Shown one piece after another: positions 28,452-30,641 of a stretch of DNA of 64,000 bases. Each line of letters opens with the position of its first letter. The stretch's first letter is position 1. Source of the stretch: Opitutaceae bacterium EW11 (GTDB lineage: Bacteria; Verrucomicrobiota; Verrucomicrobiia; Opitutales; Opitutaceae); assembly GCA_003054665.1 (NCBI GenBank), contig QAYY01000003.1:372001-436000 (forward strand). The letters are read 5' to 3'. Made by a program: the position numbers and the translations under genes. Under the pieces are notes generated by a model, which did not search any database, was not told the DNA's origin, and was given only the letters and a program-made list of their open reading frames with translations.

Positions 28452-28479
28452 AAAAAGCCGCGCCTGGGATGGCGCGGCT
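28452..28479 (-). terminator. Rho-independent terminator after the actin gene
   Basis: A 9-bp perfect stem (AGCCGCGCC 28456-28464 with 28471-28479) has a 6-base loop and, on the minus strand, a five-T run. It begins 45 bases past the actin stop. The rest of the 304-bp gap to ilvE (28220-28523) shows no gene or RNA that I can support. Confidence 0.8.
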
Positions 28480-28523: not shown

Positions 28524-29672
28524 TCAGCTTAGCAAATACTGCCACTGGTTCTCTCGCGCTGCGCGGGCCGCTTTGAGTGCTCCTACGGCGACGTATCGCT
28601 TGTAGTCCTGGCCAGCGAGTTTGACCTTCGGCGACTCGTAGCCGTCATCCGTCAGACGTTTCTGGAGGACGGTGTCGATGCCTTTGATCTGGGAGCCTCC
28701 GCCCGTGATGATGATGTTCTGGAGGAGGGCGACGACCGAATCCGAAGATGCGCGGGAGATGAGGGTCGTCAGTGCGGGGTAGATCTTGTCGATGAGCGTG
28801 TTTGCGGCGCGCCCCAGCGCTTCACCAAGTTCGAGCGTGTGGGCTTTGCCGCCGATGATCACGCGCACGTCGATTGGCTTCCGCACCGGGCCGACGTACG
28901 AATACTGCTCCTTGAGTTCGCGAACCTTCAGACGGGAGAGCCCATTGTTTGGATACATCCGGTTCAGCTCGGCGTGCAGGATCTCGTCGATGGCATCTCC
29001 GGCGAACGGAATGCTGATTTGGTCTTCGCGGGTTGGAAAGTAGCCTTGGACGAGGCAGAGGTCGCTGGTGCCGCCGCCGATGTCGATGAACAGAGAGTTC
29101 GTGACCGGGTCGACGTAGCCGGGCTGCCCGAGGCGGGCGTCGTCGCGGAATCCGAGGGCGGCGAGAAACGGCTCGGGGATCAGCAGGATGCGATCGAAGA
29201 TGCCGAGCGCACATTGCCGGATGTCTTCACGCGCCGGTTCGCCGGCGTTCGCGGGGATTCCGACGACTGCGCGGATTTCCGAAGTGCCGGAGGGATCGAC
29301 GACGGAGCGAACGTGGCGGAAAAAGTCTTTTGCGGCGTCAGGATGCGCGATGATTCCCTCTTTGAGAGGAGCAAGCAGGTCGACGTGAAGCAGATTCTTC
29401 AGCGCGTCCTCGCCGAAGAGCACGCTGTTGTTGCCTGCAATGATGCCGTCGACGATTCCCTCCTTCACGTATCCGACGACGCTTGGGATGATCTTGCTCA
29501 GTCCGATGTCGTTGCTGCCGGCGTTCCCCGCCAAGATGCACGACTTGTTGGTGCCAAGATCGAAGCCGACCAGCATCGTTTTGGACTTCTGCCCGCGCGG
29601 TGCCGCCTGAGCGGGGGCGGTGGTTGGGGTCGGTTGTGCGGCGGGTTTTTCGAGAACTGCGGTGGTTGTCAT
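28524..29672 (-). CDS. MamK-like bacterial actin
   Basis: 382-residue actin-fold ATPase. A ~30-residue Pro/Ala/Thr-rich leader precedes the phosphate-1 loop VGFDLGTNKSC (35-45). The IPEPFLAALGF segment, phosphate-2 IDIGGGTSDL (196-205) and adenosine motif ITGGGSQIKGI (322-332) follow. Beyond the shared actin motifs, SVVGYVKE, AVVGIPANAGEPARE, IPEPFLA, REDQISIPFAG and LKEQYSYVGP match MamK, the magnetosome filament actin, better than MreB as I recall those sequences. No other magnetosome gene is in the window, so it probably builds a filament with another job. A small gene 21 bases upstream looks like its operon partner. Confidence 0.82.
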   Translation of the reverse strand: MTTTAVLEKPAAQPTPTTAPAQAAPRGQKSKTMLVGFDLGTNKSCILAGNAGSNDIGLSKIIPSVVGYVKEGIVDGIIAGNNSVLFGEDALKNLLHVDLLAPLKEGIIAHPDAAKDFFRHVRSVVDPSGTSEIRAVVGIPANAGEPAREDIRQCALGIFDRILLIPEPFLAALGFRDDARLGQPGYVDPVTNSLFIDIGGGTSDLCLVQGYFPTREDQISIPFAGDAIDEILHAELNRMYPNNGLSRLKVRELKEQYSYVGPVRKPIDVRVIIGGKAHTLELGEALGRAANTLIDKIYPALTTLISRASSDSVVALLQNIIITGGGSQIKGIDTVLQKRLTDDGYESPKVKLAGQDYKRYVAVGALKAARAARENQWQYLLS

Positions 29673-29693
29673 AGTGCTTGAGACGTAAGGGGC

Positions 29694-30110
29694 TTAGGGG
29701 CGGTGGGAGTTTCCGGCGCGCCGTGTTTCGTCGCGCTGCTGGTCGAGCATGCCTTCGATCAGGTCCGCGATATTCGAAATCGGGGCTCGAGAACCTCCAG
29801 AGGGAGTGACGGGAGCCTCCGTGTGCGGCGAACCGTGTTTGATCGGCGAGGGAGCCCGCTCTTGCAGCAGCGACGAGATTCGAGGCAGGAGCAGCTCGGC
29901 GACGGCGGAGGCCTGTGCGACGCGGTCGTACTCAGTCCGCACGATTTCCCACAGGTCGTCTTCGCTTGGTGCAGCATCTCCGTGACGGGTTTGGATTTCG
30001 CCGAGCGCTGAAACGAAGTCGTTTTCTAAAGAACCGTGGGGATTGCGTTCGTGGTCGATCCAGATCTGCCGGCAGCGTCGACTGAGTTCAGCCCGGGGGA
30101 GATCGAGCAT
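29694..30110 (-). CDS. hypothetical partner protein of the MamK-like actin
   Basis: 138 residues from the ATG at 30110 (MLDLPRAELSRRCRQIW); a TTG ten codons earlier is possible. It is mainly helical and polar, with a helical first ~85 residues, a Pro/Ser-rich linker (SPIKHGSPHTEAP) and a short C-terminal helix ISNIADLIEGMLDQQ. No membrane helix or known domain is visible. It ends 21 bases before the actin gene on the same strand. Many bacterial actins and ParM-like filaments pair with a small adaptor, so a filament-binding role is plausible but inferred only from position. Confidence 0.65.
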   Translation of the reverse strand: MLDLPRAELSRRCRQIWIDHERNPHGSLENDFVSALGEIQTRHGDAAPSEDDLWEIVRTEYDRVAQASAVAELLLPRISSLLQERAPSPIKHGSPHTEAPVTPSGGSRAPISNIADLIEGMLDQQRDETRRAGNSHRP

Positions 30111-30263
30111 CAGCGGGATACTGGAGAGCACAGCGGTCAAAATCCGCGCGCTAGACCGGGCGAGACGCCGACGGTTCGCAGGATTCGTAGAAAAAACCAG
30201 GCGACGGTAGACGGTGAATACACCGATCTCACTCGCCGTCCGGCTGCAATTCTCCTGCCGGCT

Positions 30264-30641
30264 CTACCGCATCTTCTGAACCTGTCCTGGGGTGCCGGCT
30301 CGCTTTGCGTCCAGATGCCGAGCGTAGAAAAAATAGGCGATGCCGACCGACCCGAGGAAAAGCGCCATGCCGATCGCGAATGCCGTCAGACACCCCTTGC
30401 GAACATCCTGCTGCAGGTTTTGCGGGTTCTGCTCGTACTGGGCAAGGATGGGGTCGCTCCCGGACGGCTCAACGGCGGCGGGACTCTGTGCCCCGGCGGG
30501 CGAGAGAACGTGCGCAATCGAAGTGAGAGGCGAGACCGCAGCCGGTTTGCCCGTCTCGCGCGCGATCTCCCGGTCGAGCCACGCCAAGTGCTCCTGGATC
30601 AGACGGCGCTGCCGGAGAAGCTCGTCAACTCGATCTGGCAT
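30264..30641 (-). CDS. hypothetical protein with coiled coil and one C-terminal membrane helix
   Basis: 125 residues starting MPDRVDELLRQRRLIQ. Residues ~3-32 form a charged helix (LRQRRLIQEHLAWLDREIA). A Pro/Ala/Ser-rich linker follows, then one membrane helix at ~84-104 (GCLTAFAIGMALFLGSVGIAYFF) with a short basic tail. It would be anchored in the inner membrane with its N-terminal part in the cytoplasm. It lies 96 bases downstream of rpmA beyond a terminator and upstream of the actin pair, all on the minus strand. No family is recognised. Confidence 0.6.
   Translation of the reverse strand: MPDRVDELLRQRRLIQEHLAWLDREIARETGKPAAVSPLTSIAHVLSPAGAQSPAAVEPSGSDPILAQYEQNPQNLQQDVRKGCLTAFAIGMALFLGSVGIAYFFYARHLDAKRAGTPGQVQKMR

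Follow-up and report, generated by a model that had tools for sequence, protein, structure and literature searches.

In the genome of Opitutaceae bacterium EW11, an actin-like gene follows a small gene, with 21 bases between the stop codon of the small gene and the ATG of the actin gene. This raises the question to which actin family the larger protein belongs and whether the smaller one is its partner. An earlier note on this DNA, a stretch of 64,000 nucleotides that we refer to as the window, had suggested an undescribed filament system of an actin and its adaptor. We consider it likely that the locus is a two-gene unit in which the tubular actin BeeR is encoded together with a dedicated partner, here called BeeR-associated protein, located directly upstream (Table 1). 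The "undescribed" part of the suggestion falls for the actin, which is a published one; what seems to be new is the partner.

A BeeR-type actin and its surroundings

The actin ORF contains the segments SVVGYVKE, AVVGIPANAG and LKEQYSYVGP, for which a closer resemblance to magnetosome MamK than to MreB had been proposed. This proposal holds, as the NCBIfam model for MamK (NF040964) is matched with 209.8 bits and two models for MreB with 47.9 and 52.5 bits, while PDB matches to MamK have E-values of 6e-33 to 2e-32 (best 6.3e-33) and that to MreB has 1.6e-11. The three model scores stay below the respective cut-offs (400 for MamK, 365.75 and 293 for MreB), whereas the NCBIfam model for BeeR (NF053558) is matched with 598.3 bits at a cut-off of 530. 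The top PDB chain is 8r2n, BeeR from Opitutus terrae, which aligns without gaps over residues 14-381 (E 2.8e-192). The window actin is a BeeR, and the nearest other family is MamK.

A phylogeny that includes MreB, which the note had named as a test, agrees with this. In a quick maximum likelihood tree of 59 rows (SH-aLRT support), the window actin lies within a group of 25 BeeR rows (support 98) and a wider one of 29 (support 100), while four MreB rows are separate (support 100). Eight of the 57 loci described below were omitted from this tree by hand: L069 is truncated, L009 is the window row itself, and L044, L015, L017, L041, L045 and L053 were left out for brevity. Two distant BeeR rows are the neighbours of the two MamK-like rows, on a branch that is very long, and the tree therefore leaves the split between BeeR and MamK unsettled. 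MreB identity is rejected by the NCBIfam scores and the tree placement; the genome has its own MreB as a separate gene (G000:C8), and a search of this genome with the MamK family model gave no match above its cut-off. The reading of the actin as a true MamK or as a new actin family deserves practically no credence, as its clear sequence similarity to MamK is outweighed by a MamK score far below and a BeeR score above the cut-off, by the match to 8r2n and by the tree placement; these data refute it.

BeeR has recently been characterized by cryo-EM (PNAS 2025, PMC11929497). It assembles with ATP into three-stranded tubes, an architecture reported to be unlike that of other described bacterial actins, and the authors stress that its function is unknown; drug delivery is named as a use of the filament in their patent statement. 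The main text of that paper mentions no neighbour or partner gene, and no BeeR partner is described in the openly accessible articles searched. A hallmark of the family is an N-terminal extension that is disordered and 30 to 50 residues long (PMC11929497). The window actin shares this trait with the O. terrae protein: the Pro/Ala/Thr leader that had been noticed at its N-terminus is real and comprises about 32 residues, with the match to the BeeR HMM beginning at residue 33. When partner and BeeR are modelled as one joint chain, residues 146-183, which span most of the leader, have a pLDDT below 50.

The BeeR paper lists 12 positions that form contacts between strands. For a reference we used the BeeR of G135, which shows zero differences to 8r2n over 382 residues in the printed alignment and has a partner gene upstream. 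The window actin agrees with the G135 protein at 9 of the 12 positions; Arg157 and Gln310, both from the minor contact, are replaced by Gln and Ser, and residue 252 differs. When the letters given in the paper are used, the counts are 8 for the window, 7 for L010 and 6 for L007, but at two positions (252 and 380) the wording of the paper differs from the sequence that is identical to 8r2n. Eleven distant BeeR proteins (L011, L013, L014, L021, L026, L030, L031, L032, L061, L063 and L064) keep 1 to 3 of the 12 residues, which equals or barely exceeds the counts for two MamK-like proteins (2 and 1). Three-strandedness should therefore not be assumed for the distant BeeR proteins.

Table 1. Features of the BeeR locus, with coordinates in the window
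Feature	Coordinates	Strand	Evidence
Ribosomal protein L21	30990-31304	-	Pfam E 3.6e-34
ORF, presumably L27	30738-30977	-	sequence read by eye
Small protein	30264-30641	-	ORF between L27-like ORF and partner gene
Partner protein, 148 aa with the probable TTG start (138 aa from ATG at 30110)	29694-30140	-	ORF
Partner, predicted N-terminal three-helix domain, residues 14-95	29856-30101	-	AlphaFold2
Partner, Pro-rich linker, predicted flexible, residues 96-123	29772-29855	-	low pLDDT
Partner, conserved C-terminal helix motif, residues 124-135	29736-29771	-	alignment, AlphaFold2
BeeR family actin-like protein, 382 aa	28524-29672	-	NCBIfam NF053558, PDB 8r2n, tree
BeeR, disordered Pro/Ala/Thr N-terminal leader, residues 1-32	29577-29672	-	HMM, paper, pLDDT
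Terminator-like hairpin, 45 bp past BeeR stop	28456-28479	-	9-pair G+C-rich stem, then TTTT

The genes are read from the minus strand in the order L21, L27-like ORF, small protein, partner and actin. The hairpin behind BeeR counts for little as evidence of a transcript end, because the region has no more terminator-like sites (3) than shuffled sequences (mean 3.5). The small protein has no Pfam or NCBIfam match and presumably contains one membrane helix. As a third member of the system it was rejected, since its distribution does not track BeeR: among 41 genomes of the family, 29 encode it, including G013, G066, G080 and G314, which are devoid of BeeR, was not found in the BeeR-bearing G114, and is encoded far from BeeR in G126 and G321.

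The upstream partner protein

The upstream ORF had been described as a protein of 138 residues with a conserved-looking helix close to its end. The ORF is real and contains IADLIEGMLDQQ within this helix; the length is correct for a start at the ATG. Aligned relatives, in which the start codon was picked by rule, point to a TTG ten codons further upstream, and we take this to be the probable start, which results in 148 residues.

In an AlphaFold2 model, based on an alignment of 24 sequences including that of the window, helices are predicted for residues 14-32, 38-56, 60-95 and, at the C-terminus, 124-143. The ten-residue blocks from 11 to 90, within the N-terminal domain, reach pLDDT values of 81-96. 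The linker that follows differs between relatives in length and sequence. The partner has no convincing known family or fold. No match was found for the window protein in Pfam, NCBIfam or PHROG. A profile search of the PDB gave none, and a PHROGs scan with three partner proteins gave no convincing match. When 44 members of the partner family were compared to Pfam and NCBIfam, only individual members produced matches, the best at E 0.001 and 0.0014. Foldseek with the predicted fold resulted in 147 PDB matches at E <= 10 and in none at E <= 0.001.

Identity to the window partner is as low as 16 to 26% in the other 23 rows of the 24-row alignment, but every row shows the C-terminal helix clearly. 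No other part of the protein is conserved as well, so that the impression of a conserved helix proved correct. Its motif can be written as I-x-x-[LMF]-[IL]-[DE]-x-M-L. Columns I124, A125, D129 and M131 are near-invariant, with the window protein having E at position 129. The motif patterns used for counting were written after the family had been seen. As the first pattern missed many upstream helices that were visible by eye, it was widened twice, once for the count of paired loci and again for the residue counts. The final pattern fits 52 of 55 partners (all except G118, G130 and G015). Among these 52, I occupies position 1 in 43 and D position 6 in 48; position 5 is always I or L, while M is found at position 8 in 31 and L at position 9 in 42, figures which are partly fixed by the pattern that selected the proteins. 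The hydrophobic moment of the 12-residue motif has a mean percentile of 0.83 relative to shuffled versions and reaches 0.9 or more in 20 of the 52 proteins. The helix is thus amphipathic on average, and moderately so.

Association of partner and BeeR across genomes

Conservation of the gene pair was analysed for 57 loci, 27 from whole genomes (including that of the window) and 30 from GTDB contigs, with shared species between the two sets being possible. A motif-bearing ORF is located directly upstream of BeeR on the same strand in 47 of the 57 loci, its stop codon being no more than 198 bases ahead of the BeeR start that was matched. The upstream gene is thus conserved and MreB is excluded, so that neither of the two findings which, according to the note, would speak against its proposal was obtained. 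In the same upstream stretches, none of 89 control ORFs of at least 80 residues has the motif. In the window it occurs in 1 of 401 ORFs, which is the partner itself, because this matches the pattern. Alignment A1 holds 44 of the 47 partners, having been built without L015 and L017, which are close to L014, L016 and L018, and without L049, a fragment that lacks the start.

For two of the unpaired loci (L029 and L060) the upstream sequence is missing; for L060, a partner was found in the genome. Another five (L030, L031, L032, L064 and L065) have a distant BeeR, 41 to 50% identical, without an adjacent motif ORF, and in the genomes of three of these loci (G012, G177 and G178) no convincing partner was found by profile search. 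Judged from their sequences, these five BeeR loci may encode a different type of filament; of the 12 cross-strand residues listed in the paper, L030, L031, L032 and L064, which have no adjacent partner, retain 1 or 2. Finally, L067 and L068 are MamK-like genes, and L069 has a truncated BeeR.

Some records require separate mention. The two MamK-like genes (L067:4250-5185 and L068:5001-5885) come from records titled uncultured archaeon and reach 344.5 and 354 bits with the MamK model in the stretch that was matched, with the cut-off at 400. In L069 (4803-5336) the partner N-domain is fused in frame to the last part of a truncated BeeR; the partner helix and most of the actin are missing, which reflects either a deletion or an assembly error. 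L044, from a GTDB record titled Gammaproteobacteria bacterium, has a BeeR that is 73% identical to that of the window and is accompanied by a partner. This is perhaps a misbinned or misnamed contig from Opitutaceae.

Co-occurrence was counted in 177 genomes of the order, with thresholds of E < 1e-120 for BeeR and E <= 1e-5 for the partner profile. Both genes are found in 25 genomes, BeeR alone in 2, the partner alone in 3 and neither in 147, so that the partner is present in 25 of 27 genomes with BeeR and in 3 of 150 genomes without it. The corresponding Fisher value of 6e-25 is not corrected for kinship and overstates the certainty because the genomes are related; the test is also partly circular, because many rows of the partner profile come from the same genomes. 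For many genomes the scoring was restricted to some of the first-look candidates, at most 21 in the order search and 13 in the phylum search, so weak partners may have been missed. Weak matches in G146 (8.8e-4), G050 (0.0019) and G178 (0.0055, with an internal stop) were attributed to chance and not counted. BeeR alone is found in G131, which has 66 bases upstream of the locus, and in G012. The partner alone is found in G086, where the contig ends inside the partner gene, and in G118 and G130.

In a sample of 288 genomes from the phylum, the same 12 genomes hold both genes and 276 hold neither. Seven of the 12 are also part of the order sample. In the five new ones (G321, G331, G371, G430 and G436), which do not contribute to the partner profile, the partner is adjacent to BeeR in all cases. 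Their helix cores are IADFLDAML (G321 and G331), VRSMIDAVQ (G371), IPDMLDALE (G430) and VGGMIDASQ (G436); the pattern of the pairing count fits two of them (G321 and G331), the later, wider pattern fits all five. Several genomes lack both genes while a member of the same genus has them (G080, G172 and G421 beside G154, G418 beside G126), and thus the pair comes and goes together.

In G011 and G015, BeeR and partner are found on separate contigs, and each of them has other neighbours. The association of the two proteins thus outlives adjacency. The C-terminal end of the G011 partner, FDDLESILNEALKRC, fits the wider pattern, while that of G015, RPDLINNILDQQKK, is outside even of this pattern, and the G015 protein is a weak match (5.1e-6). 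The opposite situation occurs in G118 and G130, which have no BeeR. Here the N-domain of the partner is kept (G118:C1:23797-24093 and G130:C17:94330-94644) and the helix is absent. As both genomes belong to one genus, they represent a single natural case. A gene next to each of these N-domain-only partners presumably codes for a CoaBC flavoprotein, as far as can be read by eye. The absence of the helix where BeeR is absent suggests a link between the helix and BeeR and a separate role for the N-domain.

Four genomes from the family of the window (G126, G430, G371 and G436) have a divergent BeeR (44 to 46.5% identical), which clusters in the tree (support 93) with the one from G167, a genome of a different family. 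For each of their partners, the top six matches come from one another, from G167, from L063 and from further distant partners, and none is from the main BeeR type of their own family. It seems that actin and partner have been inherited or transferred together.

These distributions bear on the simplest alternative, that the upstream gene is independent of BeeR and merely shares an operon or promoter with it. The small protein further upstream illustrates that mere neighbours do occur at this locus. However, the partner tracks BeeR in the phylum sample, is present without being adjacent in two genomes, and lacks its helix in both complete partner genes from genomes without BeeR. We therefore regard mere neighbourhood as unlikely.

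Regulator or adaptor

ParR is a DNA-binding protein that is encoded together with parM. It is one of three proteins, along with arcadin-2 and MamJ, whose example leads us to think that BeeR is probably bound by the C-terminal helix of the partner. The partner is probably a dedicated regulator or adaptor of BeeR. The pairing, co-occurrence and co-inheritance of the genes, the conservation of the helix and its natural absence in one case where BeeR is absent are observations; binding, docking site, influence on filaments and role in the cell are inferred. The partner helix would dock onto the actin, the best candidate site being the hydrophobic groove often occupied by actin-binding helices; according to the parts of PMC5173319 used here, this groove of ParM is where ParR binds.

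Under one possibility, which we hold tentatively, the partner mainly controls assembly, whether by sequestering, capping or depolymerisation, and does so via its helix as arcadin-2 does for crenactin in Pyrobaculum. Arcadin-2 is a small protein that accompanies one actin and consists of a core, a non-conserved linker and a small conserved helix at the C-terminus, and the helix peptide alone depolymerises crenactin filaments (both from PMC5173319, used in part). The partner has this layout: its linker varies between relatives and the C-terminal helix behind it is conserved. Arcadin-2 is archaeal and is likened to the partner by layout and function, not by descent; in the same parts of that source a tryptophan is held partly responsible for its binding, and the partner motif has no tryptophan. 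The retention of the N-domain without helix and BeeR in G118 and G130 suggests, against such a regulator, that this domain has a job beyond sequestering. As BeeR that has been purified from E. coli forms polymers by itself when ATP is supplied (PMC11929497), the partner is dispensable for assembly in vitro.

The other possibility, to which we give the same tentative credence, is that the N-domain binds a cargo or a cell structure and the helix couples this ligand to BeeR, as in the pairs MamJ-MamK and ParR-ParM. The two conserved parts and the variable linker of the partner are consistent with this, as are the position of mamJ directly upstream of mamK, the strong divergence of MamJ-like adaptors (both from the sections of PMC10653835 considered here) and the binding of ParR in the groove of ParM. 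Against it, no cargo- or DNA-binding family or fold was found for the N-domain in Pfam, NCBIfam, the PDB profile search or Foldseek. This also separates the partner from ParR. A plasmid home of BeeR was rejected too, as none of 72,556 plasmid records gave a match at E <= 1e-20. The similarity to the magnetosome pair has its limits as well: MamK is the next closest actin family, but the window actin scores below the MamK cut-off, and MamJ, compared by its description in those sections of PMC10653835, is acidic with a repeat domain, while the window partner is not. The linkers of some relatives (L020 and L023) are acidic. An adaptor, as the note had proposed, is plausible by analogy, and a regulator of polymerisation fits equally.

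Structure prediction was also used to look for docking of the helix. In the tethered AlphaFold2 model, which is based on an alignment (A4) without the partner-only rows that had misaligned into the actin in A2, the helix blocks 121-130 and 131-140 have pLDDT values of 81 and 85, compared to 74 and 85 for the partner alone. The joint model is uninformative on docking because the confidence for the helix is much as for the isolated protein.

On balance we favour the view that BeeR is part of a cytoskeletal system of two components, in which a dedicated, fast-evolving partner recognises it via a short C-terminal helix, and that both genes are acquired, lost and passed on jointly within Verrucomicrobiota, which would provide a handle to the function of BeeR. 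With a conserved partner and a short candidate binding peptide, this function becomes directly testable. If our view is true, BeeR would be another actin that is paired with a binding protein acting through a C-terminal helix, and the partner would be a possible tool to cap or decorate the BeeR filament.
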